64,000 bases of DNA from Siphonodentalium dalli (taxonomy: Eukaryota; Mollusca; Scaphopoda; Gadilida; Siphonodentaliidae), in the NCBI GenBank assembly GCA_032622095.1, contig CP136061.1:173419107-173483106 (forward strand), in the 5' to 3' direction. The translations under genes and the position numbers were made by a program. The notes beneath the pieces were generated by a model. It saw only the letters and a list, made by a program, of their open reading frames with translations, did not search any database and was not told the DNA's origin. This document shows positions 32,833 to 61,326 of this stretch, piece after piece. Numbering within the stretch: position 1 is the stretch's first letter; each line of letters starts with the position of its first letter.

Positions 32833-33264
32833 TTTTTATTGGTATTTTGACCCCAGAAAATATAAAATAGACCTAATTCCAAGAAATACCACGAAAATAG
32901 GTAAGGGACCTTGTCAAAACTAAAACGGTAATACCGCTGGTATTACCTCTAGAGGCAGTTTTACCGCTGGTAAAATAATGCCAAAATCGGTAATTTCACC
33001 GGTAATTTTAATTGAATGGAAAATATCACGTTTCCTGTGGTTTAAGGCGCCCCCGTCGTCGCAAATATACCCGTACAGTTGTGCTAATATCCGGCCTTCT
33101 CTCACTCAGTAGACATGTAAGATAAATATTGTTCCAAAAAATATTGCCAGCATATTTTATAAATTATCATCTACAGTTTGTTTATTCACAAAACTTAAGA
33201 AAGAATCAAGTTCTCCTCAATTGTAAACAAATAGCACGTGACCTAGCCACAGGGGACGCTTTCC

Positions 33265-33674
33265 GATGTAAACAGCGAAAGCTCAAAAGTATAATGAATA
33301 TTCATATAAATAGTAGGAATTTTCATGGGGTTTCATCAAATTACCACTACCCCGCAGCTAATCATTCTCCAACGCTGATTGCTTAAAATTACCCAGTCTA
33401 AAATTTTATCCAATTAGATGGCGAGCATCAATTTAGTATTCAGGTTTCGCGGGGATTCCCAAATATACAGCTACCCCGCAGTTAATGAATCCCAATGATT
33501 TGTGTGGCAATAATAGGCATGTGATAATCTCATCCAATCAGATCTTGAGTTAGCTCAATAATTTATGGGGAATGCCCGGATTATCTCAGTTTGTTTACAT
33601 TATGCAAAGAAATTATTTCACACTATACTATCGCACACAAAAAGCTTAATATTTACATCATCGCCAATTTTCTA
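33265..33674 (+). repeat. Direct repeat A1 of second YR retroelement
   Basis: From GATGTAAACA.CGAAAGCTC to CCAATTTTCTA; near-identical to 41077-41477, which lacks about 9 bp. Confidence 0.85.
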
Positions 33675-33721
33675 ACTTCTGCCAAAGGCATCATTGATTT
33701 CTGCTTTGTTTGCTAACAATA

Positions 33722-34907
33722 ATGGGACGACATAAATCCCGTGACATTCGTTCAAATACAGCCATTACAGGTAAATCTCGGTAAAAACAGAACAATACAA
33801 AATCTGCTCGTCGGCCCGGTCGGGCTACCAATAACACCAGTGAAACTGTGCAAACCGAACACAAGAACAATATGCGCCAGTGAAAGTGGCATAAACAATG
33901 TCAACCCCTGGGAACTGACAAATAACCCCAAAAATTGGACAGTGGCTCGTTTGCGATGTGAGTTGAATGATCTGGACATCATTGTTCCAGAGTCAATTAA
34001 AAAAGCAGAGCTGTTAAAACTCCTCCAAGCCAACAAGATGCGATCCATGTCCACTGCAACCAACCAGCAACTGCACATGCATTCTTCACCAATTCCATCT
34101 GTTCCCACTGCAGAAAGTTCCAGTGGCTTCGGTGACATCGAGCCTGCAGATGGCATGTATCAACGACATGTTCAGCACACACTCTCAAGTGGCAATCCCG
34201 AAGTTGTCCCCACATCTGTGGGTTCGGCAATTCCAGCTGCGTCAGAATCCCAAAAGGATTCACACATATCGTCTCTTCTGGCAACAAATCGTGCTTTGGT
34301 TTCACAGATAGAGGCGATGTCCAACCGGACAACAACTCAGCCTGCAGCGCGTCGTGCCTTTGGCAAATATAAAGGCATCATATGCGAGGTGATCCCTCAA
34401 AGGGCACAGGATCTGGAGTCATACTTGGCTGATATAATCTCCATCTCCACTCAGTATGATGATGGATTCTACGCATACCATACTGCTTTTTCAGCAAAAG
34501 CTGCAGCCTGGCTAGCCCGGGGCACTAAATTTGACTGGGGCCTACGTGACCATGCACTTTATTGCTCAATATTCACTAGTCAAAAAACCATTGCTTGCTT
34601 TGTCTGTCAAAATAGGTCTCACACGGCAAAATTTTGCCCCATTAACGCTGGTTCAAAAGGGCTCAATCAGGGTGCAAGCAATCGTCGTTCAAATTTTAGT
34701 TCTCCAAATTCTTCAATGCCCAGTGCAACAATCACACCCTGCTTGCAATTCAATTCTGTCAAGGGTTGCACTTTCGGAACCAATTGCAAATATCAGCATG
34801 TCTGTCTGTCTTGTAAAGGGCCACATTCAAAGCAAGTACCGGTATGTAGCCAGAAAATGGTCCGTTCCAAGACTTTTTATCAGACTCCAAACTCTAATTC
34901 TAAATGA
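33722..34907 (+). pseudogene. Gag-like frame with SAP-like segment and CCCH finger
   Basis: The main open frame is 33741-34907 with no ATG at its start. An ATG at 33722 (MGRHKSRDIRSN) is in another frame, so the N-terminus is probably shifted. Residues 65-97 of the open frame (NWTVARLRCELNDLD, then PESIKKAELLKLL) resemble a SAP DNA-binding helix pair. Near the C-terminus are a CxxC-type knuckle CFVCQNRSHTAKFC and a canonical C-x8-C-x5-C-x3-H finger ending CKYQH, then CLSCKGPH. Both suggest nucleic-acid binding by the gag protein. Confidence 0.7.
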
Positions 34908-34988
34908 CTCCAAAATGATTCTGACAAAGCAAGCTTAATTCCTCGTAGCATTCAAACTCCGGTCAATGTTACCTTTCTGTAGACAGCA

Positions 34989-35723
34989 TTGGGTCGCTAC
35001 CCAGATCGAGACTTTGTAAACTTAAATGGTTTTTCTAATGGTTTTGATACTGGCATTCAGGCTCTGCCGCCCAATCCACTAGCTCTGAGAAACTTGCAGT
35101 CGGCAACTTCAAACCCTGAAGCAGTAGACACATTATTGGACAAAGAATTATCTAAGGGTTTCATTTTCGGTCCTTTTGACGAACCACCATTCGTCAATTT
35201 CAGAATTAACCCAATTGGTATTGCAGAAAGAAACGGCTTATAGTTGATTTATCGGCTCCCCATTCATCAAAAACTGAACAGTCTCTTAATTCGCTGATTG
35301 ACAAAGAGGAATTCTCACTCACATATGTCACAGTGGACCACGCCATAAAAATAATTCAACAATTACCACCAGGGTGCTTACTTTTCCACTGTGATGTACA
35401 ATCAGTGTTCAAACTATGCCTAGTTAAACAGTCGCTCTGGCCATTTTACGGAATACGGTGGCGTGACAAATTTTATTTCTATTCCAAATTATGTTTTGGG
35501 AACCGATCATCTCCGAAAATATTCAATGCTCTATCGATAGCAATTTGTTGGATTGCTACCAACCTCTACGGGGTCCCCAATCTGCTGCACTACTTAGATG
35601 ACTATCTGACAATAATTCCTATTCAGGCTCTTCTTCATGTTTTTCACATAGCCGGAATTACGTTGGCTGAAGAGAAGTCAGTAGGACCGACTGATTGCTT
35701 AGAATTTCTGGGAATTATGCTCG
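34989..35723 (+). pseudogene. Reverse transcriptase of second YR retroelement
   Basis: The first piece (34989-35243) has PPFVNFRINPIGIAER. After a frameshift the palm lies in 35333-35723: motif A HCDVQSVFKL, motif B LCFGNRSSPKIFN, motif C YLDDYLTI (YxDD intact, unlike the element at 11.5 kb), then CLEFLGIML of the thumb. Motif A has Gln-Ser in place of the usual Lys/Ser-Ala. The coding match ends at about 35723, where inserted sequence begins. Confidence 0.82.
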
Positions 35724-38097
35724 AGAAAGGTCTCATATCTTTCTCAGGGTTTATAAACCATCAAGAGTAGCAGCAAAGTCAGCACAAATCACGTTTATTT
35801 AGAGCCCCCCTTTGTTTCTGGACGTGATGGTAACTTCTAGCACAAGTCTCATTACCGTAGTTCAAACTAATAAAGAAACTTTAATCGCCATTAACATATT
35901 TCACCGGCATTATCAAAACCATGCTGGCATGTTATTGTTTACATTCGACAAGTCTCGCAGACCACGTTAATCTCGTCGTAAACGAGAACTCAGTATAAGC
36001 ACACTTAATCATACCAAATTAATTTGAACCTATGCCAACGAGACTAGCTATTTTCTCCGTAGTTTCTCCCGCTTTTTGGCATTCCTTTGATCTTGGAATA
36101 AACCAATGAGAATGTCTGACAATTCCAAGAATATAATTTTGTCCAATAGAAATAATTAGAAATCTACTACCTCGGAAAACTATTGAAGTTCCGGAGTAAA
36201 CATTTCACTTCGATGAAATAGCTTCTCGAAAACAATAGCATTCAACATTATTATTGCAATTCAAACAACTTACGCTAATACAAGCAAATTATTACGCTTT
36301 TAAAATATTTGTATTACCCACCCCCATCCCCTGCGAACCACCATCAGGAAGCACACCATTTATGGGGCTCTCGGCTCTGGTACCTTTGCCCCGTCATCAA
36401 CTCGCACTCCCCCTCTTTTCCTTATCTACCGGTTGATCAGACTCCACCAGGACCTTCTTCGGGGTCGTTAACCTAATTCTCATGCCATGCGTCCTCTCCG
36501 ATAATTGCATTCCGGATTTCAGATACACGTACAGAATCAATTCATTAAGCTTCAGAGGAACTGATGCTGAGGTGAAGCCTCTCGTAGTCCTCTTCAGGCC
36601 CCTCAATGATAAATGCCTTAGGTTCAGCTCATTATCAAACAAAAACAAAAACAAAAAAAGCACGAGGCCGAGGTGTTGCATCCTCCAGGTCCTTTCTCCA
36701 TCTATCATTTATAAGCGCCATAGGACATGAAGCTGAGGTGTTGCATCCTCCTTGTCCTTTCCCCTATTATTGACGTAGGCTCCATAGGACATGAAGCTGA
36801 GGTGTTACATCCTCCTTGTCCTTCCCCTGTTATTGATGTGCATGTAGGCTCCATAGGACATGAAGCTGAGGTGTTGCATCCTCCTTGTCCTTTCCCCTAT
36901 TATTGACATACATGTAGGCTCCATAGGACATGACGCTGAGGTGTTGCATCCTCCTTGTCCTAACCCGCATTTGCAGTGGCATAGTATCTCATATATTTGC
37001 AGCACCTGATTTGTCAGGACATGAAGCTTAGGTTTGGCATCCTCCCTGTCCTAACATACATTGGGAAGTAAGCACAATATCATATAGGCATTAAATGGTA
37101 TGGGTATTCTCGCTTTGCGAGATAGCCCCAAATTCAGGATCTCATTTAGGGCTCAATTAGAAATCATAATGCCTTAATGCTTCTTTGGGGCTTCCTTATT
37201 TCAATCTTCTATCGAATAAATAAGTTCGAAATTAATTAAAGGTAAATGGGTACCAGAACATGAGAGCCTCATATATCCCAAAAAATCAATTTAGCATGTG
37301 TATGCATCGGTCCTAATCAGGCATTCTGATTTTAGGGAAATGCATACTCATTCTAATCAGGTACAGCCTCACGGGCATGTATCACATGAATAATCATTTG
37401 ATCAAAGTAGATCTCAGATTCTATTAATTAGATAGCCAAGATATACCAAAAAATCGTGCCAATAGTGAACTCGGTCAAGAACAATGGGAGTTCTTGATTA
37501 TTATATTTAAAGTGATTCAACCATTCTATTTGTTCAAACCCTTCAATACAGTATTCTTAGACTTTATATATAGGTACAGTACTGGTGTGGGATACCAGAC
37601 ATTACCAGTAGTTAACAATTCTTTTCCCCACAGTGGTCCTTACATTCATGTAGGACACACACTTAATCTAATCTCAATTTGTGAGACGCATCTCCTACTA
37701 GTACATACAACCAGAATTAATAACAACCATCTCTTAAAGCAGATGGTCATCTTTCTGTCAAGTCTAGTTACTTTATTCAAACTCCATCTAGACCTTCTGT
37801 AGAAAAGAATTACTCATCAGATTTAGTAAATAGAATGGTTTGAGGATCACTGAAATTCTTATACTATCTTATATATATTTTCATATATTCACTAATCAAT
37901 ACATATTGATTGATCTAGTCAATGGGCCATATGTATACATGTATAATATTCATGATTGTTTTTGTTTTAACTTTTAATGGCTATCACATGTCTTTGAAAA
38001 ATTACTGTCAAATGTTTTGTTATTCAAATAAATGCATGTCAAGGTTAAAGATTTTCTAGAAGCTAACCATATCCCTCTGATGGTTTATAAATAATAG
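35724..38097. mobile_element. 2.4-kb insertion separating RT from RNase H
   Basis: RT homology stops after LGIML (35723) and resumes with DTEQMQCRLP at 38098. Near the two ends an inverted 14-mer is found, TTTATAAACCATCA (35750-35763) and TGATGGTTTATAAA (38078-38091), but no target duplication is clear. Inside are a 75-bp tandem repeat (36660-36965) and a stretch at 36340-36380 (CCACCATCAGGAAGCACACC, ATGGGGCTCTC) resembling the tail at 41500. The frames at 36254-36730 are not convincing genes. Confidence 0.6.
36660..36965 (+). repeat. Minisatellite, ~75-bp unit, about 4.5 copies
   Basis: Each unit carries GAGGTGTTGCATCCTCCTTG, TCCTTTCCCCTATTATTGA and GGCTCCATAGGACATGAAGC with small length changes. 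A weaker copy follows at 37015-37060. Confidence 0.8.
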
Positions 38098-38882
38098 ATA
38101 CTGAACAGATGCAATGTCGCTTACCTAACAACAAGCTAGCCAGGCTGCAGCAACTTATTAAATCATTTCTCCAAAGAGATACATGTACCAAACAAGAGTT
38201 ATTAAGCCTCCTGGGCCATTTATCATTCACGGCAAAGGTCGTGGTACCTGGGCGTTCCTTCATATCATACCTCATAGGTCTTTCCACTTCTGTCACCAAG
38301 CTCTGGCATCATGTCAATTTATCTGCAGCCTGCCGAATGGGTCTCCAAATGTGGCACAAATTTTTAATCAACTGGAATGGAGTGTCCATGTTTCTAAATC
38401 ACGAGGCTATAAATTCGGATGAGCTCTCCCTGTTCACCGATGCAAGCGCTATACATGGCTTTGCTGGTTATTATAAACCCCATTGGTTTTATGGCAGCTG
38501 GCCTGCAGGAGTGGAAAGTCTACGGGGAAAAGATTGGTCCATGGTTTTTCTTGAATTATACCCTATAGTTTATTCATCTATATTGTGGGGCCACATGTGG
38601 AAAGGCAAAAGAATTATATTTGTTTGTGACAATGAGGCAACTGTACAAATTATTAAGAAAGGCAGATCCAAAGTGCCATCCATAATGTCATTAATGAGGC
38701 AACTCACCTTCTCTGCTATGAATAACAATTTCATGTATTATTCCATGTATATTCCATCTCACAAAAATATTATTGCTGACAGTCTTTCTCGTTGCCGTTT
38801 TCAGGAATTCCGTCGGCTTGCACCAGAAGCAGACGAAATCCCCATGAAATGTCCTTCATTCACAGAGATGATGGCAGTTTGA
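38098..38882 (+). pseudogene. RT connection and RNase H of second YR retroelement
   Basis: Open from 38098: MQCRLPNNKLARLQQLI and LLSLLGHLSF of the connection, then RNase H with all acidic blocks: FTDAS (about 38435), LELYPIV (about 38550), VCDNEAT (about 38626) and NIIADSLSR (about 38770). This is the one frame of the element that is intact over its whole domain. It provides the reference for what is missing in the Ngaro copy at 12.18 kb. Confidence 0.85.
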
Positions 38883-38944
38883 TCGGCAAAGCGGACTGGC
38901 TGTGGTTAAAAATTGGTATCTGATACTGCTCGCGCCAGTACAAA

Positions 38945-39873
38945 GTGGGCCTAAACTGGCTGCTCAAATTTGCAGTCATCAATAACATGATTCTGAGAGG
39001 GCCTCACCGACTGCCTGAATTAACTGAAACGGCACTGCTTCAGTTCGTTGTGTTTTGTAGCACGCACATCAAACTATCATATGCCACAATCAAAGTGTAC
39101 CTCTCAGGAATAAGATTCTTCTATATAGCATATGGTGCGACCAATCCTTTGGAACAATCGAATGGCCAACCTTGGCCAAAATTGTAAGGAGTTTTGCGTA
39201 GTCTCAAAAAGCAGCAAGTGACCACAGCCCGTCCGCGATTGCCCATCACATTTGTTATCTTATCCATGCTGTTTGATAAGTTGAAAGAAGAACCCTTTTC
39301 TCCATTTACTTGTCTAGTTATGAAGACAGCTCTTTCCATCGGATTTTTCGGTTTCCTCAGATGCGGAGAATTTACAGTCCGTAATGCTAAAAGTGCAAAC
39401 ACATTCATCTCCGTGGGTTACGTTCTAATCCATAAAAACGGTAAATCTGCCTCTATTCTTCTCAAACAGTCAAAGACCGACCCTTCAGGAAAGGTGTTCT
39501 CACGAAGTATTTCTGTCTGCCGTCCATATGCCTGGTGGAATATCTTTCAAGGATGTTAGCGAAGCATAGTCAGTCAGCAGATGCACTGTCTGACCCCTTC
39601 CTAATTTCAGATGATGGGCAAGCATTGTCTAGAAGTTATTTCATAACAAAACTAAAACTTTTACTTAATCTATGCGGCATCCCTGCGCATAAATATTCAG
39701 GGCACAGTTTGCGCATAGGCGCCACCACATCTGCATGCGAAGCCAGACTCGAAGATCATCTTATATAAACACTGGGCAGGTGGGAGTCAGACTGTTATAC
39801 GCGTTACATTCATACTTCCGATGCAACATTATATGATGCCCACAGGGCATTAAGTAAATGTTTTCAAGTGTGA
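38945..39873 (+). pseudogene. Tyrosine recombinase of second YR retroelement
   Basis: N-terminal SAM-like part FAVINNMILRG...TIKVYLSGIRFFY, then a TAA at 39185, a frameshift near 39545 and a TAA at 39766. The catalytic set is still readable: Arg in FLRCGEF (about 39355), His and Arg in GHSLRIG (about 39700), Trp in LGRWESD and the Tyr of CYTRYI (about 39800). The reading ends at the TGA at 39871. Confidence 0.85.
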
Positions 39874-41076
39874 AGGGTATTTATGTTAACAATTATACTC
39901 TGTTATGGTGACCTATGATATTTCCCACCTATTGTTGTTTACGATATATCGGTTGTGTTCCCTGGTGGTGGTACCTTCCTTGGGGCTCTCCGCTGGTAGC
40001 ACCAGCTTCGTTTGGTAGGTCGATTCACTCTGACCCCTCGTCAGGATCGCAACTACTTGCGCGACTTGCACAAAGCATAAATTAATTAATTTACTTCAAT
40101 AATTAATGACACAGTTTCTATGAAACGAACAGAAATATTTGATGTTAGAATGAGGACCTATAGCTACCAGGAGAGCCCCATAAACCCAATTCAAGAGCTT
40201 TGTCATGGTTAATTATATAATCATTTATCCATGATAGACTTTGGCTTTCGAATAAGGCCTAGGCTATAAGAACCTAATTGAATAGATTGTATAATCCTGT
40301 TGTGAGTTAAATGTTAGTATAGCAGTATTACTTAATCATCTATGTCTATCATTGCATGAAAATTATTTTGCTATAATCAAATCATACTTGTGTCTTGTGC
40401 GCATAGATACTAGTATACGCAAAGATTCTTCATGAGCGCTATTAAACTCCTATAGAGAGCATTTCAGTCTATTATTTATACAAGTATTGTAATTATAAAT
40501 CATTTCTGGTCATGTAACATTAGTTCTCAAGCAAGAGATTCTAAGTATTTGAAATTGCGTAATATTAAACGATTCCCCAAATCTTGACATTAACAATAAA
40601 TGTCAAAGTTAATTTAACCAAATGCTCCAGCTCAATACAAATACTGACCTAAAAATCTCAATACAGTTTTGTTTTATCATCAAAGATTAAGTCACAAGCT
40701 TTAAAGAATCTCAATACCCAATTTGCTTATTACGATATTTATGTGCAATTATGTTTTATTAAGAATGATTCTTCACTTGGGACCTGTGAGGAGCTATTCA
40801 CCCTACAGCATCTAGTGATTACTATTAAAGGACCTTTCTAACAGCCGGAGAGGTGTTTGTAATTCTATGAAGCATATTTCTAGTTGCTGTGGGATGAATG
40901 GATCGGCACATGCCTTGCGGGGGAGAACCATTAGTTTTCTTATATGTATTTGACCAATATTACATTTCATATCTTTATTATCGCTTTATGTGCCAAAATA
41001 CATATATATCAATGATTTCAGTACGAGTATCTCTGCAACTCTTTTCCATAGGGGGCTCCTTAAATTGAAGGGAAAA
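39874..41076 (+). other. 3' non-coding region of second YR retroelement
   Basis: No frame. 40141-40190 read on the minus strand resembles the tail at 41505-41560 (ATGGGGCTCTCCTGGTAGC, GGTCCTCATTCTAACATCA). An inverted rather than a direct B-type repeat may therefore exist here. Confidence 0.45.
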
Positions 41077-41477
41077 GATGTAAACATCGAAAGCTCAAAA
41101 GTATAATGAATATTCATATAAATAGTAGGAATTTTCGTGGGGTTTCATCAAATTACCACTACCCCGCAGCTAATCATTCTCCAACGCTGATTACCCAGTC
41201 TAAAATTTTATCCAATCAGACGGCGAGCATCAATTTAGTATTCAGGTTTCGCGGGGATTCCCAAATATACAGCTACCCCGCAGTTAATGAATCCCAATGA
41301 TTTGCGTGGCAATAATAGGCATGTGATAATCTCATCCAATCAGATCTTGAGTTAGCTCAATAATTTATGGGGAATGCCCGGATTATCTCAGTTTGTTTAC
41401 ATTATGCTAAGAAATTATTTCACACTATACTATCGCACACAAAAAGCTTTAATATTTACATCATCACCAATTTTCTA
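41077..41477 (+). repeat. Direct repeat A2 of second YR retroelement
   Basis: Copy of 33265-33674. The following 271 bp (41478-41748) are the tail shared with the insertion in Copia. Confidence 0.85.
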
Positions 41478-41748
41478 CCCCACCACCACCCCCTTCGCCA
41501 CCATCAGCGGAACACCAATTATGGAGCTCTCCTTTAGCCATGGTCCTTGTTCTAACATCATGAACTTGAAGGATCAATACCAATTACCAATGCCATGTTA
41601 GTGTCTCCCAGTAAGCTATTCCATATTGTGGTACTTGCAGCCAAATCGAGTGCGTATCATAAGGAACATGTGCTGTCTTCTTGCTTTAGCATCTGCTGTC
41701 ATTCACGCTCTCCGAACAAGTTCACATAATTCATTCCTACTTCGGCAC

Positions 41749-42736
41749 TACAGTCAATTCCAGTTAAATGCATATTTCGGCTATTTGCATAAAATATGCA
41801 TGCATCAAACCATTTTCTCATAAAAAGACTATTTTTTAATCGTTTATTTGCATAAGGGTCGGACTCTATTCCGTTTTTATGCATACGAAAATCGCCAAAA
41901 ATGTTGATGAGAAGGGGTAAAAAGTCCTCATGGTGCCGAAATTATAGCAATTTGTAAAACTATTTACCTTGAAAAACGTATTTTATGGGAAAACTTAATA
42001 CAAAGTTGCTGAAGATGACCATCGCGAGAGTGAAGACGGCAATTTTCAATTTCATAACACACGTGGTTTTCTATCTCTTCTCATTAACAAGCTTCTGTTG
42101 ACACACATTTCCTGTATGTTTCCATATTTATTTGTGAATTGCATGATTTATTTAAATTTGTATATTTATTTGGTTGTTTGTTGAGTTTGTAAACGTTTGT
42201 AAAAAACCTGAAGTTCCAGTTGAAATTCTGAGGATTCAAAGTGAAAGGAAGATTTTCCCGGGAATTCCACCAACAAGGAAGCCAATTACTAAACCGAAAC
42301 CGAAATTAACGTGCTTTTCTATTTCTTCTAACATGCTTCTGTTCAAACATTTCCTGTTTCAAATCATTTCAGCGGTGGTAAGTAAGTATTTGCTATCAGC
42401 TTGTAGACAGCAAAAAAGATTGATGAACTTGAGAAATATAATATTTTATTCAAAACGGAAAATTATACTTCGTAGGCACGTGAGAATATTCAATAAAATG
42501 AAATAAAGTGAATCTTAAAATCTCATTTAGAACCCAATCTCTAACGGCGTATAGCTGAAAACGCATGAGTCGCTTGCGCGTGCAAAGCACGCCTGTCCTG
42601 CTGAACAACCAGACTGTAAAAACATTTTTCGTGTTCAGTGACAACGTCGGTATGTTCCTACATGTGCCAAACAAAAGAACTGGCTTCCTGGTTATGTAAA
42701 CACACAGTGGGTATAATGAAAGTGTCAATGACACTG
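41749..42736. other. Remaining interior of TIR element, no gene seen
   Basis: The small frames here (42174-42506 plus, 42450-42734 minus) have no recognisable domain. Confidence 0.4.
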
Positions 42737-43375
42737 TAGCTCAACTTAGGTAGGGGAATAATTTAATGGTTGACAGTAAATGGAGGAATAGGAAAGGTGC
42801 TAATTGAAATGTCTAACCTGCGCCAAAGGATTTAGTGATGCAAAGAGTAAAATACAAGATGGCTGCTGGTGGCCATGTTTTTTGGCCAATTGACCCCAAA
42901 AGGACTCGTTACCATCTACGCGTCATTGTTAACATCCATGATAAATTTTATGAAGTTCTGACCAAAGCTATGACCTACAAACTTCATGATGATCAGACGA
43001 ACAGTACGACCTGTAGACCGCGCCAATGGATTGAATTTTGAAATCCAAAATGGCCCGCGCGAAAGGATTTAGTCATGCAAAGAGTAAAATCCAAGATGGC
43101 TGCTGGCGGCCATGTTTTTGGACAGAATGACCCAAAACGACTCGTTCCCATCTACATGTCATTGCTATCATCCATGACAAATTTATTGACCATCTGACCA
43201 AAGCTACGACCTGTAGCCCGCACCAAAGGATTTAGTCATGCAAAGAGTAAAATCCAAGATAGCTGCTGGCGGCCATGTTTTTTGGCCGAACGACCCCAAA
43301 ATCACTCGTTCCCATCTACATGTCATTATTAGTATCCATGACAAATTTCATGGTGATCAGACGAACTGCATTTCA
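42737..43375. mobile_element. TAGCTCAACTT element with array, 3'-truncated
   Basis: Left end TAGCTCAACTT at 42737, with GTGTCAATGACACTG before it as at 18262 and 18540. Array cores at about 42858, 43098 and 43261. No right terminal hairpin is found; similarity fades near 43375. Confidence 0.65.
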
Positions 43376-44050
43376 CCATGGTGACATCATATTATTAGGG
43401 ACAGATTTCATAGTAATTTGCTGATTTCGTTTATCCGAAGATCCATTAGTCCCAAAGTAGGCATATATCGTTACCGTTGAAATGTTAGAGGTGACCCGCG
43501 GGTAATTAATTATATGCCCATTTAATACACATGCACAATTGGGGAAGTCAGGAATACTCGAATATATATATATGTTGTAAGTATATGAAAGTCAAACTTG
43601 GGAGCCAAATATCAAACACGGATATATCAAACCTTCGGTTGTAAAATAAACACCCCCATCACCCAATTTAGTCCTCGTTTCGAGCTGTTTTGCAAAACAA
43701 ACAACGTGGCCTCCGATGTTTATATAAACAAAATACGGTAACCTCGCCAGGAATGTAAATGGAATTTATAATTGCAATGTTCGTGCTGTAATTGCTTTGT
43801 AAGTGAACTCCGTAATATAAACAAATGATATGAACAGCGTTTGGTCCGTGATTTGCATGTGAAGTACAAATGTAGGCCTACATGATCACACAATTTCACG
43901 TTCCTACAATGGTCAATGTCTTCGTTGAACAAACATTAACACAAATCAAAATATTGTGTTAATTAAACTCATTTAAGGCCTAAAGTGACATATACAAACA
44001 TGACCGTGACTCCGTACAAATACTGAAAATTTATGGGCACCATAAAACAA
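43376..44050. other. No gene seen
   Basis: AT-rich interior of the TIR element; the minus-strand frame 43720-43932 has no domain. Confidence 0.4.
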
Positions 44051-44052
44051 CA

Positions 44053-44370
44053 TTTCTCCGGTGATTACATCGGTAATTATATAAGTTCTCCAGTAATTCC
44101 CTGGGTAATGATTTCATCAGTAATTTGTTGCCTGACATCGATATTTTACTGGTAAAAGTTTTCGGTAATTTCGATCGCGTTTATCGCTAATTCTATGGGT
44201 AATTTCACCGGTAATTTTACCGGTAATTTCACCGGTAATTTAGAGCCTTCTACTGGTAATTTTAGCGGTAATTTTTCTTAAATCAACCGGTAATTCCACC
44301 GGTAATTTTCCATCGGTAATACCGCCGGTAATACCTCTCAAGCAGGTAATACCGGCGGTATTACCGTTTT
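44053..44370. repeat. Subterminal array of (T)CACCGGTAATT motifs
   Basis: About twenty copies of a GGTAATT core, many as CCGGTAATTTCA/CCGGTAATTTTA, ending in the palindromic GGTAATACCGGCGGTATTACC next to the right TIR. A shorter group lies inside the left end (32926-33016). Confidence 0.8.
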
Positions 44371-44390
44371 AGTTTTGACAAGGTCCCTAA

Positions 44391-45755: not shown

Positions 45756-45759
45756 TTCT

Positions 45760-49244: not shown

Positions 49245-49252
49245 GTATAGGA

Positions 49253-51949
49253 TCATATATAATCATGCACGACCGCATAATTGACCCAATGAAATTAGAC
49301 ATCTACTGTCATGATATTCTGTTAATTTAAATGGACATTGCTCATTCGAGCTTCCAAATTTTGTCTAAGTAATTTCTAAGGATGTATAAGATTGGTTGCA
49401 AATACAAGAAATGTTGATAAGTATATATACCAGCCTCATATGCTCTGAGAAATACATACTGTGGACAGAGCCCTATTCCAGCTGTTTTTTTTTTCGTACA
49501 GAAGTGAAACAAAGGCTCTTTATTTGTACCATATAAAAAATAGACTGACACGGAATGCTCTTTTCTGTTCCATGTCTTGCAAAATTCGGGTTCAAAGTTG
49601 TATTTTTCATGACTCAAATGTGTCTTTCTGTGACATTATTATACTGTTCATTTAAGGTATTTCAAGTGTTTATCGAGCTATTTCTATATCGGGAAAACTT
49701 AACGAGATGCCGATCGTGTGATCGGCAGATGTTTAACCCTCACCTTGGCAATACCGATTAGCTATTATAATAAATGCTTACACCAACCTTTTCATGAGTG
49801 CAAAAGTTTCAACAATTCACACCTTACTATTAAGGTCACAAGTGGAAACAGACTTATTGGGCACCTTGCTCACATAAACACAATAACAACACGGATGTGG
49901 GTCACTCCAACACAGAAATGTCTTATAGAGTGATAAAGCTAATTAAGCTCAATCCATAGTCAGAGAGAAGCACAATAGCAGTTAAAGACAAAATAGTTAA
50001 GACATTAAGTAGATAAACATCATACCAACTCCATTTATTTGCTTATTACATTGGAATGTGAGACAAAACATATGTTTTTTGTTATTATTGTTAATTTTTT
50101 TATTATGTTTTGTGTTAGCTGCATATTAAAAATTCATGGGATCATTTAGATGGGACAAAAGGGTTAATAATTCCCATTCAAAAACCAATCAATACCTAAA
50201 CAACTATACAAGTGAGGGATGTATAGACCTGGATATAAAATGATTGATAATGATTGGATATAAAATGTTTTAATGCAGAATTTTCAGATAGCCAGAGGTA
50301 GGATATGAGATTGGTCAGATTGAAAATATTAGATTCATTACATTGGATAGCATACTGTATGACTATGGAATGGGGTGGGTTAATTTTATTCTAAGCTGAT
50401 CATTGGAAAGATATAATGTATGTAAAACAGTGGAAATATAATTAAAGGTATGGTTAATATTATCAAAACCATTCAATCGATACCAAAATCTATACAGGTG
50501 AAGAATGTGTCATCATTAACATGGATGCAATTATTTATATAGTGATTGTGTGAAAAATATTTAGTTATCACATTGTGTCAACAGGATTGGTGGAGGATGT
50601 TAATATATTTAAGCAAATAAACCAAATGACCCTCACTATTCAGGTTAGGGGTGTGTTATCATAAACTATGCCAAGAACTATAAACATAATCAATGGAAAT
50701 ATTTTAGTTATGAAATCGGATAGAATGTGGTTAATCTTACCCAAACTAATGAACTGATAAACACAAAAAGTCTATAAAAGCATGTCATTGGATTTAGAAA
50801 CCCATAAAATAAGTCAGTCTCTAATTTCATGAACCTGTTTCAACAAAGGGGTTAACTTAATATTGCACAGAACACAGAATGGACCAGAGAGTCATCAATC
50901 ACAGTTTTGACAGATTTTATCAACAGACTCTGTGAGCCATGTTATCTATCTAGTGTCCAGCTAAACATAATCATTGCCAATAATACACTCTCTGTGTAAT
51001 AAGAACTTCTCTTATACCGGTAACTGTTGACATTTAATTTCTCAATGTCATTGTGTCATTGTTGTACTAGGATCACCGGTGGAATTGGGAACAAACTTCG
51101 CCTATTTGCGTAATTATTTGCCGAATTCAGACTCCTACCACCTGTTCAATCTCTTGTGTGTTTAGATCCTTCCTTCTTTTTGCCAAATTGTTGAATTGTT
51201 TTGGCTTTTCTCGCCAACATTTTTGTAAAATGATGTTGTTGTCAACTAAAATGCAGATGGATTTAAATTTGATAGCTTGACCGGAATTTGGTCTGCACAT
51301 GCGCATATAGTCACGTGTTTTAGCGTTTAGCCAATCGTATGCTCAGTTCTAGGTATCACCTGATTTAGACAAGGATTTCCCAAAAAAATTATGACGTCAG
51401 AGGACAATGTTTACGCATAGCGAGAATGACATGTGGTCGGTATTAAGCTAGACGTGTCAGTGGGTCGATAATCACGCATATATAAAGTTAAACTTTGTTA
51501 TTTTTGATAAATTTTGCGTTATATTTAAAACAGATAGCAGGTTAATATACTTCTCCGAGAATGTTAAAAAACAATTTGTAACTGTTCATCGTTAATTTCT
51601 TGATTTTATGCGACAAAATAGTCGAAAAGTCACGAAATTACGCTAACTATCAAAAAATTTCCATAAAAAAAAACCCAATAAAAATAATTCTATTTGGGAA
51701 TTTTACTCTAAATACTCAAGATATATATAGAATAAACATTTGCAGTTAATAAATTGTAGATATACCGGTACATACTCATATATCTTTATTTTAGCACAAA
51801 ACATTCATAATTTTTTTTTATCAGAATTTTAGTAACAGAAAAACGAAATAAATTCAAAATTGAATAAGTTCATATTTAATATACGACGGCATATATAGTA
51901 CAAAACTTGGGAGGCTGTGAGCAGTATTCCTGAACATATCCATATCAAA
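49253..51949. other. Intron sequence without genes
   Basis: No exon or coding element seen. 50180-50800 shows loosely repeated blocks (for example (A/G)ATACC.AAA..ATACA(A/G)GTGA and ATG(T/G)GGTTAAT.TTA), possibly an old tandem repeat. TTAACCCT at 49735 and AGGGTTAA at 50161 could be ends of a decayed piggyBac-like copy. Confidence 0.4.
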
Positions 51950-52330
51950 GTTCGATAAGTGTGATATAAATGTTGACAAATCTTTCCAAAGTTCTATAAG
52001 TGTACCTATAAGTGTGGGCAGTGTTCCCAAACATTTTAAAAGTAAAAGTATCATAAGTGTGTCATAAGTGTTGATAGAACATTTCAAAGTACCATAAGTG
52101 TAGCTGTAAGTGTGGGCAGCATGACCAGCATGCCCAAAGATTTTTAAAGTCTCAAAAGTGTACACTTATTACAACTCTTACACTGCACTTACAAAATAAG
52201 TGTACATTTTGAAAAAGTGAGTGTGGTACAAGTGTACTGAATTAAAAAAACAAAAGCTACAAGTGTACTATAAGTGTATGCCTGAACTACACTTATACTG
52301 AAAGTGTACACTTAGAAAATGTAAGGGCTT
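51950..52330. repeat. AAGTGT/ACACTT-dense stretch
   Basis: More than a dozen AAGTGT hexamers, usually as ATAAGTGT or CATAAGTGT, plus several ACACTT, including the palindromic AAGTGTACACTT twice. Spacing is irregular. Confidence 0.75.
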
Positions 52331-52389
52331 ATACTGAAAAAGTTGTAAAAATTGCAGTTGTCAATCATCAGGATAAAAATAGATCGAAA

Positions 52390-52640
52390 TGTTGTCAATC
52401 ATTAATTATTCATGGTTATTCATTCTTCGAACATTTGCACATGATGTCAATCATAAATTATTCATGGTTATTCATGCTTCAAAATTGTGTTGGTCTCAAT
52501 ACATTGTGGGTCTCTCAAAGTGTTCACACATATTCATGCTTGAGAAGCATGAATAACCATGAACAAACTGAACCATGAATATACACCATGAATAATGAAT
52601 GAATAACCATGAATATCATGCTTATTCATGCTCTACGAAT
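52390..52640. repeat. ATTCATGGTTATTCATGCTT repeat cluster
   Basis: Repeated ATTCATGGTTATTCATGCTT and its complement (AAGCATGAATAACCATGAA). Related to the palindrome at 61.9-62.25 kb. Confidence 0.7.
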
Positions 52641-52783
52641 AACAGGAAACTGGGGTGATTTGTGACGGTTCCTGATGATCCAAATTATACATTTTAAACG
52701 CAATTTTTTAGCCATCAAGGTGATAATTCGATTAGTTTTTCCATTCCCCTCATAATCTATGGTTCCAAACAACGTAAACATAA

Positions 52784-55700
52784 TACTCTAGTAGCTGAGG
52801 GCGTTTTGTATGCACTTTTATGTCCAGAGCAAAACTCTTCACGAATCCACTAATTGAAGGTACACGAACAATATTTGGTTGGTGACACATTTCCCATTGA
52901 GGGCGAAATGGGTCAAATGGCCACGCCCCTTTTTGCGCGAAGTACTACCACCCGCCGTGACTATATCTCCAGAACCGTTGGCCAAAGGGGGTCGTGTGAC
53001 CACTCAAAATGTGCGGAATGGCCACATTATGGGGGGTCAGTAATACATTTTCATATCCAAAAGTCAATGGGTTTTAAGATAATTGCCAAAAACCAAAAAC
53101 CAATCAATTTTAAGGGCCCAATTTTGGGGTTCAGCACTTTTATCTCAAAGCTGAGCCCCCAATTCGAATTTTATTGATCTATATCCATCGGTGCCACATA
53201 TAGGTATAATTTCTGTACCATTATCGGATGGGATTGACCTCCATGGAGCTCTTGACCCTAAAAATCCACATTAGGGGGGGTCAGTAATACATTTTCATAT
53301 CCAAAAGTCAATGGTTTTTAAGATAATTGCCAAAAACCGATTTCAGCATGTTACGCACCACAAGTATACAATACCACCAAGGCCACAGCATATGTATGAC
53401 ACTTTTTAAAGAACTATCCGAATTCTCTGATCGACTTAAGAGCACAATTGACCACACACAATGGGATTAGCTGGAAATTGCTGCTGAGGATGTGTTGATC
53501 CCGACACACAACGTGAGCTCTTCATGACTGAACATGCCTTGGAAACTGGTGTGCTTTACCAAAAATCAGGTAACAATTGTGCTCTAATCAACAGAAATGT
53601 ACAGATTGAACAAAACAGGTTTTCAAAATTTGTTATCAACATTTAACAGCTGATCTGATTTAAGTGACCAAGATATGAAACATGCTAAACACTTTTACTA
53701 AATGGAATGACCAGCTGTTTGCTTCATGCAGCAGCCACATGTTGCGATCCTAAAATAGGTATTGCACCTGGGCATAGTAAAAACATGTTGTAATCAGATG
53801 GGAGATGACCATATATACCAGTATATATTTCAGAAGTAATCAATTCTTACAAAAGGACACCTCATCTCACAAAAAGTTTTAGGAAATGATGGAATGATCA
53901 CTATTCAATCAATAGTAGAATGAGCCTTTGTCAGTCCCACATTAGTTTTGATTGACCATGATAGTTGCATCACTTGCAGGTTGGAGAAGATGAGGGTCTA
54001 TAATTTCACTAACATAATTCTTCATAATAGCTAATAGCCCTCATAACCTACCATTTTAAAGATATTTTCATTTTCAATACCACCTCAGGTTAAGTGGTCC
54101 TGCTAATTTTATATTATGCTGATGGGTACTGCTGGATTGATATGTTTGTAGGTCAAAGCAATTCTGTCAAGTACCATCATTTTACCTAAAGTTGGTTATT
54201 TTTGCATTGTTTGGCTAACCCGAGCAATTTGTGCAAAAGTCAGTGTCTGTATGCAACATTCAAGAACATATATACTTCAAAATTTTATTGTGTATGCTGA
54301 TGTTTGGTAAACAACCGGAATTATGGCCAGTTTGTAAAAACCAGCACCCATTATTAAAATATTTCACAATATACATGTTTTTTAATGTTTTCTACACATT
54401 GTGGCTTATCCTCGATTCGTTCAGATCGCTTTGCTCTACCTGAATATCATACCAAATGTATTAGCATCACCAATAAACTTGGGATGAATACTGCCAAATG
54501 AATATATTGTGATAAGGGCAGTGGAAAAATAATGGTTGAGTCTTTTCTAAATATAATTCTAGTAAAACCTACACAATACCGTCTTGGTCTGATAAGACTC
54601 AGAGTCATGTTTATTTAGGAGTATAGACATGAAGTCCACCAGTTTCATGAAAATTAAATGGGCTCTGTACTAGTAACATCTGGACTCCTGGGACCCATTA
54701 ATATTGACAAATGCAACACAAATGAAAAATACATAGTAACTTTCCTCAAACATAGATTATAACCTGACAATCATTGTGTTTGAATCAGTGTACATATGTA
54801 TATGTAGGCATGGCCATAGCATGTTTTTGAAATACTGCAGAATGCAGACCATAAATTTCAATATAATATACATGTAGTTACTGCATGTACATCACACACA
54901 TAAGGCGACTGACACACATAAACGTACCTGCAGGGTTCACAATATTTGACATGTAAAGTATATATATATCTCCTGTGCCTATAACATCAAACCAAACGGT
55001 TTACAGTACTTTTACTGACATTTTTGGAGTGGCACATATACATACATAAAAAATAAAAGTCAATTTAAAGGGACGAAATGAAAAATAAATTTGTGCAACT
55101 ATAATGGAGATCTATATTGCATTACAACATCCACAAATCTACAAAATCTACGACATCCACAAATCTACAAAATCTACAAAAACATCTGACTATCATAGAC
55201 ATTGGTAATGTGATCATTTTTCCTTGATAAGTTGAAACATGAGGGAGGATTGCATAGCATGGCTACATGCAGAAAGTAGATTTGTATGTATTTATATCTG
55301 CATATCAACTGATGCTTGTATTTTTCTCACTCCAGGTTAGCCATTATTTGTTCTAGAATAATGTACATGTTAGGGAAATTGTAGAACCTTTATACAAAAT
55401 GGTGACGCAGCCAATCAAAATTGATGTGGGACTGATAAAGACACAACCTGCTCGACTACTGAATCATACTGATTTATCAAATTGTAGTAACTCAACATTT
55501 ACTAAACCTACTTGTGGGCTGAGTATAATTCAATTCAACATTAGAATACCATAAAAACACCCTGTTCTCCCATAAGTTTAAAGAAAATAACACATTGAAC
55601 TCATTTACAAGTATATTGCTAATGTGATATATGTCATTCCATTTATAACCATTTTGGCAGCCATCTCACATCAAAGGCCATGAAATCTAGATAACAAAAG

Positions 55701-56346
55701 ATGAACTACATTCAAATTATATCACCAGGTAACCTTTTTGTAGGAGTTTTAGGTTACTGATCAAATGCCGTATAATTGATGATTTCCTCAACATCTTTGT
55801 TATTGGGAAAATGTCTGTTTTTCATTCTACGACCAATATATTCCATCCAAAAACCTTATTTTCAGGGTCAAGAGCTCCTTGGAGGTCAATCTCATCCAAT
55901 AATGGTACAGAAATTATACCTATATGTGGCACCGATGGATATAGATCAATAAAATTTGAATTGGGGGCTCAGCTTTGAGATAAAAGTGCTGAACCCCAAA
56001 ATTGGGCCCTTAAAAATGGATTTTTTTTGGTTTTTGGCAATTATCTTAAAAACCATTGACTTTTGGATATGAAAATGTATTACTGACCCCCCCCCCCCCA
56101 TAATGTGGCTATTCTGCACATTTTGAGTGGTCACACGACCCCCTATGTCCAACGGTTCTGGAGATATAGTCACGGCGGATGGTAGTACTTCGCGCAAAAA
56201 GGGGCGTGGCCATTTGACCCATTTCGCCCTCAATGGGAAATGTGTCACCAACCAAATATTGTTCGTGTACCTTCAATTAGTGGATTCGTGAAGAGTTTTG
56301 CTCTGGACATAAAAGTGCATACAAAACGCCCTCAGCTACTAGAGTA
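52784..56346. mobile_element. Long-TIR (foldback-like) element, non-coding
   Basis: Arms of about 480 bp (52784-53264 and 55860-56346) are inverted copies, sharing TACTCTAGTAGCTGAGGGCG, GGCGAAATGGGTCAAATGGC and TCTGTACCATTAT.GGATG. TAA lies outside both ends (52781-52783, 56347-56349), a possible 3-bp duplication. The 2.6-kb centre has no coding frame. In the left arm an approximately 65-bp block (GGGGGGTCAGTAATACATTT) is repeated at 53031 and 53274. Confidence 0.82.
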
Positions 56347-56894
56347 TAATGAAATTCCTATTGTGCAAGTAATAACAACGACGAAAACTGCGATTGTGAT
56401 ATCTCGATCGGTTCTCTCCCGATCGAGTCGGTTCTATCCCAATTTAATCGGTTCTATCCGGGAAATATGATGACTATTATCTGGAAGTATATGTGAAAAT
56501 AACCAAGTGAGCACAACGAAATGTCAATTATGTTGAATTGACACCACTTATGATCAATTACGATGAGTTAAACTGCCTTCTTATATATAATTATGTGTCA
56601 ACAGTAGTAACAGAATCGTTCACTTTATTGTGACGCAAAGCATGCAATTTGACAGCGAAGACTGATTTTTTTCCCCAACAAACAGCAACAAACCAATGAT
56701 AATGGTCGACTGATTCAAAATGGCCGCCACTTTTTTTCAATATGGCCGCCACTTTTTTTCAAAATGTCGCATTTTTCAGCTTGTATTAAACTTATACGAA
56801 CCACGTGACTTCCATTCCTTATTCGAACATGGCCGCCGCCCATGCAGAGGGGTTCATATAGGTGACCCATGCCATTTCTCGGTTCCTTTATATA
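56347..56894. other. No gene; short local repeats
   Basis: Three TCGGTTCT(A/C)TCC units at 56406-56460 and a tandem ATGGCCGCCACTTTTTTTCA pair at 56721-56762. Confidence 0.55.
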
Positions 56895-58106
56895 TTAACT
56901 CTTTCATTCCTGAATATACAGATATATATGTCCCATAACCCTTGATTATCAGCTTTCCTCAGAAAAATTATGTGTCCCTGATATATTGCTGCAACACTAC
57001 CTTTAGAGTGATGTCGGGTATGGCAAACTGAATGTTTTATGATCGTTAACAGGTGACCTTCAATTTGTGTTATATACCAATTGGGGGCGTCACATCTAAA
57101 TGATATACCAGGTGTGTGCAGGTGAGAACCGAGAAGGGACATTGAATCCCAACATATGCTATTGGGGCATGTATCACCTGTATCTGGGATATCAAATTAG
57201 CATATCAATGTTTTCCACAAATACATACATGTATCTGTCATTCTTTGCAAGTGTGGTGTATACACTTGGCTGTGATGCCACCGTGCATGGTTTCAACTGT
57301 TTTACCAATCGGTTCATTGAACATAATTGCATTATCAAAGGCACGAGCAGACCAGTACTAACCCAGCTAGTATGACAGAAAGACGCTATTTGATCGAAAC
57401 AGACATATACTCCCACATCTACCAATTTTAGACCCAGGGATTTACTTGTCAGTATGCTGAGGAATTATGAGTAAAATTCCAAATAAAACAACTGCCAATG
57501 TCCTGATTCGATTCCCAAAATGATTATGAATGTCGATTCATGTTTATAATATGCACGTGCAGCTATTATTATTAAAGTCGTGCCGTAGTGCAGCACGGTG
57601 ATTTCCGTAACATTGCGTCGAAAATAGGAGACATTAGACGGATACCACAAATAAAACATCGTTAGAAAGGTCAACATTATCTTCTTTATTTCATAAACAT
57701 AATAATAATAATTGTATCGGTAAGTTTTTGTGATAAACAATAAACCAAAATCGAAATGTGACTCAAAACACCATGCACACCTGTCGGTAGTATTGCGTCA
57801 TCGATTTTTAGCTAAACCCAAAATAGTAATCGTGACATCATACAGCTGCTGTGTATATTTATAGGCCCGGAAAGTCTCTTAATTAATCGCGTACATGCTA
57901 GGTATTCGTGCGCACCGATAAATTAGTACTGATGCCGAATATCACCCAAAGGATATGCAAATCGCTAACCAATAAAATCATTTGTATATCTCTGGAAATA
58001 TTGTATTATTCCCGACAATTGCGATCTGCCCGCTAAAGCGGGCTGCCGGGATGAACGTAAATTACGTCGTGCCCGCTTTAGCGGGCTGCCGGGTTGAAAG
58101 AGTTAA
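56895..58106 (+). mobile_element. piggyBac-like non-autonomous element, copy 2
   Basis: TTAA at both ends (56895-56898, 58103-58106), with ends CTCTTTCATTCC and, from the right, CTCTTTCAACCC. About 1.2 kb, non-coding. It matches copies 1 and 3 in blocks. Near the right end are GCCCGCTAAAGCGGGCTGCC and GCCCGCTTTAGCGGGCTGCC palindromes. Confidence 0.78.
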
Positions 58107-58836
58107 GGTCAAACAAAGGGTGCTGTAAGTTCCCCCCCCCAAGACTCCTTAAAGAGTCATCACAAACCCCACCCGATCCAAAATTGACGGTGGTCAACTG
58201 AATTTGGACCAGGGGGGGTTAGTGTTTATGGTGTCTTGTGGTGTCTTGTGGACACATGTTTTAATTTCATTTTGTCCTCTGTTGTCATTTCACCTTGAGG
58301 CAGTATGAACGATAAAGTGAGTGCGAGTCGATTTAGCCAGTCCGTGTACCGTATATAGTTTGTAATTAAGTTCGTTTTAACTCTATTTTTGGGCTTACTT
58401 GTGCAATTTGGGTTATTTATATAAATGCTTCGTATACAAATTAGGACCTAAGCATTTACGAGCGTATTAACATTTTACTCGATAATATTTTGGATGAAAA
58501 CTATATTTAATAAAATTAAATAAACACTATTCCCAATATGTTGGTGCACAACTCCATGACAAAACATCACAAATTAATTAATAAAGATTATGTGCTTATT
58601 GCTTGGTTGTTTTATTTGTTCAGCCGTTCCTTGTTTACGTATTATATAGTTAACCCTTTCTGCTCTTGTTTTTAAATGGAATTCATCCAAGCTGTGTTGA
58701 CTTAAATATTTTCTTCTGATCAGCACCCCGAAATACAGATCAGGTTCAAATTTGAGTTTGATCCGGTATATTTTAACAGAGTTATGGCCATTTAAAATTC
58801 AAGTAACTGATAATGTAATTAACGCCCACTGTGAGC
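58107..58836. other. No gene seen
   Basis: Poly-C at 58132-58140; otherwise unremarkable. TTAACCCTTTCTGC at about 58651 resembles a piggyBac-type end but no partner was found. Confidence 0.45.
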
Positions 58837-58869
58837 TTAGGGAGCATGTCAAAACCTCTTTCGCATATG

Positions 58870-59120
58870 CGAAAAAAGTGCGAAAAATGTGGCGTCATTG
58901 ACGTCGTTTTTTCGACATTATCAGAGTTTTTTCGTCATTATCGCACGCCGTAACGTTGTACGTTTTCGTCAATTTTTCGCTGTCTTGGTTCGATGTTTTC
59001 GCAATTATCGCAGTTTTGTTTCGCAGTTTTGCTCAAATGTTCGCTGTTCTGTTTCGACATATTTTCGCAGTGATTTGTTTTCGTCAAGATCGCAGCATTA
59101 TATCCGTCAATATTGCTGTT
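58870..59120 (+). repeat. Left subterminal TTTTCG(A/T)CATTATCGCA array
   Basis: About fifteen imperfect units of TTTTTTCGACATTATC/AATTATCGCAGTTTTG. The open frame 58889-59158 here reflects absence of stops in the repeat, not coding. Confidence 0.75.
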
Positions 59121-61070
59121 GTGTCGATATGATTGGCAGGACAGTTTGTGTTCAATAAATACTCCATAGTCGCAGTTTTATACTGATGTGTCGCGAACGG
59201 GAAGATGTCGGTGTCCATGCTGAAATTTCTCAGATCGGAGTTTTTATCATAAGAATTCCATTGATTTAATCGGAGTATTCTCCGATATGAAAACATTTCC
59301 GATTTGATCGGAGTTTATAAATGTAGGCCTATTAGTAAATTTCTCCGATCTACTGAAATCTCTGATTTGGTTAATATCGGACAATTCAAACTTCGTTTAA
59401 TAATAAACTATTATTAATAGAAGATTATTTAAAGTCCCAAATAAATTATTCCCAGACCCAATTTATATAATAGGATAGGCCAACACAATCATTTCCTACG
59501 TTTTGATGTCACATGGTGCCCGCAAATCCGTGGGTTTATAGCAGTGATATTGCATCACTGGTTTACAGTAAATATTACAGTACATGTTGAAGTCCCCCTA
59601 AATCTCGAGCAATAATTGCTACACCGTCGCATTAATACTGCAGAGTGCGTAAACAATGCAAATTTTGATTTCGAAAATCGTTTTTGTGTGTGATTATGTA
59701 ACTTGTCTTCACTTTCGGTAAACCGTCACCAAATAATTGTGCGAACTATTATGAATAAAAGAATACAGCCGAGGACGACAATAAATTATTCCACAACCCC
59801 GATTTATAGTATACTTTCTGTATGCCACGTAGAGTTAATTTCTACAGTTTCAATCTGTCTTTCTAGACCAGACACATATTTTAATGTGGACGCAAATCAG
59901 GGTGTTTACGGCATCGTCGGACAGTCGTAAACAATGCTTTAATTTTCGCAATATAAGTATGAAATCATTGTTAGATATCGGAAGCGCAGCGTCATCATGA
60001 TTAATTCGTCGGCGACTTTTATACTTTTATTTCAAATCTACACATTTTATTCAATATATATCAACGATCAGATGCGACAAAGTTAAGTTAATACAAAACA
60101 TATTATATAATAGTTTGGAATTTCCACGAATTGCACAATCATGTTATGTTGTGCTATTTTTAGCACTAATTTCCCAGGCCAATCCTAGTTTCGTTTGTGG
60201 GTAGCATTGACTGACAGAGGAGTTGAGTGTTATGTTTTTCTCGATTCTTTATTGAATGAATGATAAAAATATGGATAACATACCATTATAAAACAAGGAA
60301 CTTAGGGGGTATGGCTCTATATATGTCTGGCGTTGATACAATGTGATGAGGGCTTGTTCTATATCGGGCATATTGCTTCAAATGCTGGATCATGTGGATG
60401 GACGGTTGTCGCTCCCGTTGTGGGTGGGTGCAGCTGGTTTCAAATTTCTGTGTGATTTCATCTTTTTTCTGTTAGATGTGTGATACCTGGGGTTGTGAAA
60501 ACCCTAACTTCTTCGTACTGTCGACCTGTGTAAACTGCTGGTCTAATATTTTCCCAACTGTGTAAATGTCCGCTACCGATAGATCTATTCGATTTCATCA
60601 CTGTTTCTAGCCATGATCGAACTGATATTATGACATCAAGTCGCTTCATTTTGGAATTTTATATATCAGATGTGTTGTTTTTGTCCAACGAGTTAAACCA
60701 TTGTTCACTAATTGAGAAGACATCACGACAACAACAAAACTGTCGCACAGTTTACGCATAGTTGTGAGGGACCGGTATATACGTCATTATATGTCAGTAG
60801 ACCTATATGTTTGTATAGCCTTTTGCTAAATGTCACCCCTTCACACATTTGGAATGGGTTGACTATTGTTTAATTAGGCCTTGTGCGAACTCATAGCTAT
60901 CAAAACAGTCGAACTGTCAAGTCATTGTACTTGTGTGTTAACCGCATAGAGTTGTTTGTATGGCCTTTGGCTGACAGCCAATAAAAATTCAGCTGGCATC
61001 TGATTAGGCAGAAGGCAAAAATAAATGCGCGGATTTATGAAGTGCGACAACATCGTATGGATGTTTTAAC
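59121..61070. other. Interior of second TIR element, no gene seen
   Basis: 59215-59370 has a few TCTCCGAT/ATCGGAG motifs. The frames at 59703-59930 and 60458-60649 have no domain. Confidence 0.5.
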
Positions 61071-61074
61071 TTTT

Positions 61075-61290
61075 CCTCGTTTGTGAATATCGATCAATGT
61101 TTCGACGTCGCGACTTTCGCGTTGTCGAAAGTTTCGACATTTTACGGAAATTTTGGTCTGTTGTGGTTTCGACGTTATTGAACTTTTATGGCCAGTCGCT
61201 TTCGACGTTATCGCATTATTTTTCGTCAATTCCGACATTTCGTTATTGCACATTTACGTCAAAACTTTTTAGACATTATCGACAATATTT
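61075..61290 (+). repeat. Right subterminal TTTCGACGTTATCGCA array
   Basis: Same motif and same orientation as the left array (GTTTCGACGTTATTG, CTTTCGACGTTATCGCATT, TTTCGTCAATTCCGAC), although the TIRs themselves are inverted. Confidence 0.72.
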
Positions 61291-61326
61291 TCGCATATGC
61301 GAAAGAGGTTTTGACATGCTCCCTAA

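Follow-up and report, generated by a model that had tools for sequence, protein, structure and literature searches.

How can two transposable elements share their tips and differ entirely in the sequence just inside them? This question arises in a 64,000-nucleotide stretch of the genome of the scaphopod mollusc Siphonodentalium dalli (GenBank assembly GCA_032622095.1, contig CP136061.1, positions 173,419,107 to 173,483,106 of the forward strand), referred to here as the window, whose coordinates are used throughout. It holds two elements with terminal inverted repeats (TIRs), designated E1 and E2, which carry similar 16-bp tips and, inside them, arrays of different short motifs. We lean toward reading E1 and E2 as DNA transposons of the cut-and-paste type, both non-autonomous and drawn from related, PIF/Harbinger-like families, in which the tip and the inner sequence would be addressed to different proteins.

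Common tips and unrelated arrays

The original prediction placed the ends of E1 at 32905 and 44387 and those of E2 at 58840 and 61323, with agreement at 14 of 16 terminal bases. Indeed, the 16-bp tips are exact at both ends of each element, and the E1 and E2 tips are identical at 14/16 positions, which include nine consecutive identical bases plus GGGA (P = 1.8e-7 for at least 14/16 matches in one random placement). The ends start with GGGACC in E1 and GGGAGC in E2, and the tips of both can be given by one short sequence, GGGAnCnTGTCAAAAC. When all 16-mers of the window were compared on both strands, none besides these four tips matched the E1 tip at more than 12/16 positions. The inverted repeats extend inward past the tips, with 43 of 44 bases matching in E1 and, in E2, 45 of 51; E1 is flanked by a perfect duplication of TAA (TAA/GGG...CCC/TAA).

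Just inside the tips, each element carries its own motif, represented by GGTAATTTCACC and TTTCGACATTATCGCA for the two families. Fourteen of the 15 copies of CGGTAAT in the 64-kb window fall within the E1 ends, and the right end of E1 holds 10 of the window's 25 copies of GGTAATT. The right array is partly a plain 12-bp tandem repeat, and a 25-bp unit of the left array recurs in it, in direct orientation, with 24/25 matches. In E2 the motif is TTTCG, with 22 copies in the 625 bp of the ends compared with 1.9 per kb outside the arrays; elsewhere in the window it does not exceed three copies per 250 bp on one strand. These sites are irregularly spaced, with diverged spacers. Of the two longer motifs in the original prediction, CCGGTAATT has six exact copies (one in the left and five in the right E1 array), and TTTCGACGTTATCGCA has a single exact copy, at 61200; the TTTCG sites of E2 form a degenerate family, in which five 17-mers are at least 82% identical to the reference copy. 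When CpG ratios were ranked over the window (300-bp stretches, 50-bp steps), the top six overlapped the E2 ends, in part through the motif itself. Just inside the E2 left array, at 59223-59369, lies another small group of motifs, TTCTCCGAT / GATCGGAG.

The inner arrays of E1 and E2 are unrelated, as had been predicted. Their motif matrices are no more similar than expected from shuffled columns (P = 0.25). When the E1 right array was aligned with the left and right arrays of E2 in direct orientation, 75 and 39 of 300 shuffles matched the scores; in inverted orientation, 246 and 234 did so. Neither these alignments nor a self-comparison of the window at an E value of 1e-5 detected similarity between E1 and E2 beyond the tips.

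Three further relationships were considered and rejected. A core common to both arrays, CGRTAAT, has the same P of 0.25 behind it, and between 39 and 246 of the 300 shuffles matched the array alignments. Helical phasing as a shared rule was rejected because the E1 right array favors a period of 11.5 bp (P = 0.0015) while six tests of E2 gave P values of 0.058 to 0.80, none of them significant; the E1 signal is explained by the 12-bp tandem unit. Finally, the idea that the arrays are remnants of a single array that once filled the element finds no support, since neither interior contains a site above the matrix threshold.

A common layout at the four ends

Beyond the tips, E1 and E2 have in common a layout that the original prediction did not contain and that is new here: a palindrome followed by a one-direction array. 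A palindrome of the element's own array motif adjoins all four tips (Table 1). Taken singly, palindromes are not rare in the window, which holds 17 perfect 16-bp palindromes and eight with a 9-3-9 design, a total of 25 that includes the four at the element ends; it is position and motif that carry the point.

Outside the TIRs, the sites of an array lie on one strand (2/2 and 13/13 in E1, 9/9 and 7/8 in E2), and the two arrays of an element run the same way and do not mirror each other. In Smith-Waterman alignments of left with right array, E2 scored 29 in direct orientation (reached by 4/300 shuffles) and 11 in inverted orientation (107/300), and E1 scored 23 (0/300) and 16 (7/300). The left array of E1 calls for caution: it consists of two sites, the unit is partly palindromic (TTNACCGGTAATT), and most shuffles score below the inverted match as well. 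The direction of the sites is firm for E2 and for the right end of E1 and weaker for the left end of E1.

Table 1. Features of E1 and E2 in window coordinates
Feature	Coordinates	Strand	Remarks
E1 left tip, GGGACCTTGTCAAAAC	32905-32920	+	TIR element E1 = 32905-44387
E1 right tip	44372-44387	-	Inverted copy of the left 16 bases
E1 target-site duplication, left, TAA	32902-32904	+	
E1 target-site duplication, right, TAA	44388-44390	+	
E1 left palindrome, GGTAATACC-N3-GGTATTACC	32927-32947		Of array motif; within TIR, 6 bp past tip
E1 right palindrome	44345-44365		Design as left
E1 left array	32953-33016	+	2 GGTAAT sites, both on + strand
E1 right array	44040-44339	+	13 GGTAAT sites, all +; commonest spacing 12 bp
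Nested tyrosine-recombinase retrotransposon in E1	33265-41763	+	Outer limits approximate
Tandem-repeat block inside E1	42715-43366		~155-bp repeats in common with window 15516-19223
E2 left tip, GGGAGCATGTCAAAAC	58840-58855	+	TIR element E2 = 58840-61323
E2 right tip	61308-61323	-	
E2 left flank, TTA	58837-58839	+	TA duplicated; 3-bp duplication imperfect
E2 right flank, TAA	61324-61326	+	
E2 left palindrome, TTTCGCATATGCGAAA	58859-58874		Of array motif; 3 bp past tip
E2 right palindrome	61289-61304		
E2 left array	58891-59100	+	TTTCG sites, 9/9 on + strand
E2 right array	61090-61272	+	TTTCG sites, 7/8 on + strand

Interior of E1 and other repeats of the window

E1 is long because a retrotransposon of about 8 kb is nested inside it; with this subtracted, the DNA element proper measures about 3 kb, and E2 measures 2.5 kb. 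The nested element is marked by direct repeats of about 400 bp (33265-33674 and 41077-41477, 95.6% identical in the self-comparison of the window). Between them lie a gag-like open reading frame (ORF) at 33723-34907, with a weak HeH/LEM match (E 7e-05) and a CCCH finger (E 0.0087), both below the Pfam cut-off; a reverse transcriptase (RT) ORF at 35210-35770; a region at 38091-38882 that matches RNase H weakly (E 0.052); and recombinase ORFs at 38924-39768. The RT ORF has no sequence match in the PDB up to an E value of 1 and is 33% identical over 127 residues (blastp) to a second RT ORF of the window, at 10724-11632. The recombinase ORFs by themselves gave a single weak Pfam match (E 0.021) and are 27 and 32% identical to a Phage_integrase ORF at 12173-12853.

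These two reference ORFs (RVT_1, 7.1e-08; recombinase, 3e-08) lie in the region 2556-12853 together with a GDSL-like ORF at 2556-3290 (2.3e-08), and repeats at 2177-2455 and 13654-13931, 98% identical, bracket them. The parts may all belong to another tyrosine-recombinase retrotransposon. An inverted 97% copy of 41405-41763, from the element nested in E1, is found at 27424-27781, where it interrupts Copia-like retrotransposon pieces that span 26480-30901, with RVT_2 in 29790-30347 (7.3e-11) and weak H2C2 finger and rve matches.

The window also contains a third TIR element at 52779-56351, whose arms measure about 490 bp (95-98%) and whose tips are unrelated to those of E1 and E2; its flanks could be TAA if the ends are 52784 and 56346. 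Long inverted arms occur at 19486-24377, with a related direct copy at 56893-58098 (84-91%), and an AT-rich palindromic block of TTCATGG repeats at 61891-62248 is related to 52397-52640 (67%). ARAGORN reported nothing in the window, nor did Rfam at gathering scores. The repeats give the impression of an animal host.

Superfamily of E1 and E2 and possible roles of the arrays

The ends and flanks do not match several superfamilies of cut-and-paste elements. Tc1/mariner elements duplicate TA, and the 2-bp flanks are AA/TA for E1 and TA/TA for E2. The duplications of hAT and Mutator-like elements measure 8 or 9 bp, and the 8 bases to the left and right of either element here do not repeat one another (ATAGGTAA / TAACAGCA for E1, TGAGCTTA / TAAGTGGA for E2). 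CACTA elements end in CACTA or CACTG, and the ends here are GGGAC and GGGAG. The piggyBac superfamily, with TTAA duplications and CC[C/T]T ends (PMC2872659), does not fit flanks of TAA/TAA and TTA/TAA and ends in GGGA.

E1 and E2 are probably PIF/Harbinger-like elements, to judge from their ends. Both begin with GG, and their TIRs of 44 and 51 bp fit the approximately 25 to 50 bp of Harbinger TIRs (PMC9179366); the duplication of mPing is 3 bp and usually TAA (PMC2836001), as in E1. Likenesses to this superfamily and its Tourist-like miniature inverted-repeat elements would further include non-autonomous copies mobilized in trans and subterminal sites for a Myb-like protein (PMC9710019, PMC9179366, PMC2836001, PMC2213677). 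At the level of sequence, the likeness to the Medicago PIF/Harbinger TIRs that we could compare is loose beyond GGG (for example, GGGTCCGTTTGGTTC; PMC2213677, Table 3).

In PIF/Harbinger, transposition takes two proteins, and there one would expect the tip to stay constant while the inner sites change. A single conserved transposase would cut at the 16-bp tip, and the palindrome together with the array would address a separate, fast-evolving DNA-binding partner of the Myb/SANT/trihelix/MADF type, which would load the transposase. Between families the whole address would be changed and the tip kept. Several published findings are consistent with such a division of labor. PIF partners are of the Myb/SANT/trihelix or MADF type, the Myb-like protein of Harbinger3_DR binds a 9-bp subterminal motif, and in the available part of that source this partner, not the transposase, is the only demonstrated subterminal binder named (PMC9710019). 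The Myb-like proteins are much more divergent than the transposases (PMC9179366). For mPing, mutation of the Myb-like fold of ORF1 left no detectable excision, and mutation of the DDE site caused an approximately 150-fold drop (PMC2836001). The GGTAATT of E1 is suggestive of a trihelix-type site, as plant trihelix factors bind GGTAATT and GGTAAA, the GT elements (PMC8638620). Medicago PIF/Harbinger elements, like E1, can have tandem arrays near their ends and retrotransposons nested within them (PMC2213677).

Several observations weigh against this reading. With a single copy of each family, replacement of the array on a common tip and a long separate history of two families would look alike. 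Mirrored arrays would be expected of a symmetric synapse, and those of E1 and E2 keep one direction at both ends, unlike the two-ended arrays described in the available text on Medicago, which are opposite in orientation (PMC2213677). PIF/Harbinger elements duplicate TWA; the TAA or TTA duplication that had been predicted is present at E1, but the flanks of E2, TTA and TAA, differ by one base. The GGTAATT match is short and comes from plant factors. Autonomous PIF/Harbinger members carry a DDE transposase gene plus a Myb/SANT-like gene, and no such coding part was found here: the longest ORF of E2 has at most 133 amino acids, and no match above a Pfam cut-off was obtained for the ten longest of the 22 E2 ORFs of at least 50 amino acids or for 10 of the 11 ORFs of at least 60 amino acids in 41477-44387. 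The predicted lack of a transposase thus holds within the ORFs scanned; since non-autonomous copies are expected to lack one, it is no argument against mobilization in trans.

Searches for further copies also count on this side. In the collections searched for the tips, which consist of viral contigs and the genomes of bacteria and archaea, the tip pattern matched 107 stretches of viral contigs compared with 100 for a reversed control, which is chance level, and at least 117 stretches of genome contigs (the control was run in viral contigs only). Among the matches listed, 80 from viral and 80 from genome contigs, no stretch had two exact tip matches, and of seven inverted tip pairs with up to two mismatches per end among 224 loci, none was flanked by TWA on both sides. 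Viral contigs yielded no match to the E1 palindrome pattern and none to the E2 tip-plus-palindrome pattern. One of the seven is a 142-bp stretch of a bacterial contig (L165, 1881-2022) with loosely similar inverted tips and GATA on both sides; from its sequence it is perhaps a small bacterial insertion-type repeat, and we take it to be unrelated.

The best-surviving alternative, though we judge it unlikely, holds that the arrays are passive: E1 and E2 would be diverged families of one superfamily that each acquired a subterminal sequence, which then grew by slippage or unequal exchange; the arrays would have no particular binding partner, and the tips alone would matter. Tandem arrays arise freely, the right array of E1 is in part a plain 12-bp repeat, and E1 contains further tandem repeats. 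In the Medicago subfamily MtPH-A6-4, 18 of the 23 members have a short motif repeated in tandem near their ends and 5 do not; its unit of 60 bp and its motif differ from those here (PMC2213677). Slippage does not predict, however, that the motif should occur at both ends with its palindrome beside the tip within the TIR, and the irregular spacing and diverged spacers of the E2 sites do not favor it.

More doubtful is the possibility that the arrays are addresses for a regulator encoded by the elements, such as an anti-silencing protein, and serve no function in transposition. The model for this would be the VANDAL elements, which are Mutator-like elements of plants, a point against the comparison. 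In Arabidopsis, VANDAL arrays are targets of the anti-silencing VANC proteins and are dense, non-coding and same-direction, with a motif that differs between related families (PMC5735166, PMC10398659). As far as the available text goes, those arrays lie in introns and upstream regions and not beside a common tip, and their regulator is known. The same-way arrays of E1 and E2 favor this explanation, whereas a motif palindrome in the TIR beside the tip points to recognition of the ends. The high CpG ratios at the E2 ends suit loading of a transposase and binding of a regulator alike, with the reservation on the CpG ratio given above. A broader proposal, in which a fixed cutting tip is combined with an exchangeable address (the palindrome and the one-direction array) and the array is a loading or anti-silencing platform for a fast-evolving partner and no mirrored part of the synapse, the counterpart of VANC arrays in another superfamily, we regard as a long shot.

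Another comparison is with Ac/Ds elements of the hAT superfamily, which have an 8-bp duplication and tips different from those of E1 and E2. Their non-autonomous group has common 11-bp TIRs with very varied size and composition, but Ds elements, unlike E1 and E2, have some subterminal repeats in common (PMC3260210).

The least probable account is that E1, with a 3-bp TAA duplication, and E2, with a 2-bp TA duplication, stem from different superfamilies whose tips converged on a short GGGA...TGTCAAAAC end: the E1 flanks suit 3 bp and not 2, those of E2 are exactly TA, and similarity ends at the tips, but nine identical bases in a row plus GGGA are hard to reach by convergence, and one substitution explains the E2 duplication in an element whose TIR arms already differ at 6/51 positions.

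The original prediction called these elements the best candidate for something undescribed, which is too strong: subterminal tandem arrays (PMC2213677) and family-specific same-direction arrays (PMC5735166) are already in print, as the available parts of these papers attest. Its interpretation is supported in part; binding of a transposase to the arrays and replacement of arrays within one lineage are hypotheses. Published full texts that contain the tip sequences were, among those listed, unrelated by title. E1 and E2 themselves are not described in the titles and abstract openings listed for subterminal repeats and binding, same-orientation repeats and bivalve Harbinger arrays, which is no proof of absence.

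If the arrays are tandem noise, E1 and E2 are an ordinary pair of non-autonomous elements. If our preferred reading of a conserved tip and a partner's address is true, families that share a tip would be cut by each other's transposase and loaded only by their own partner. Families that keep the cutting tip and swap the inner address would then be a means of studying the ways in which relatives among transposons evade one another's machinery.

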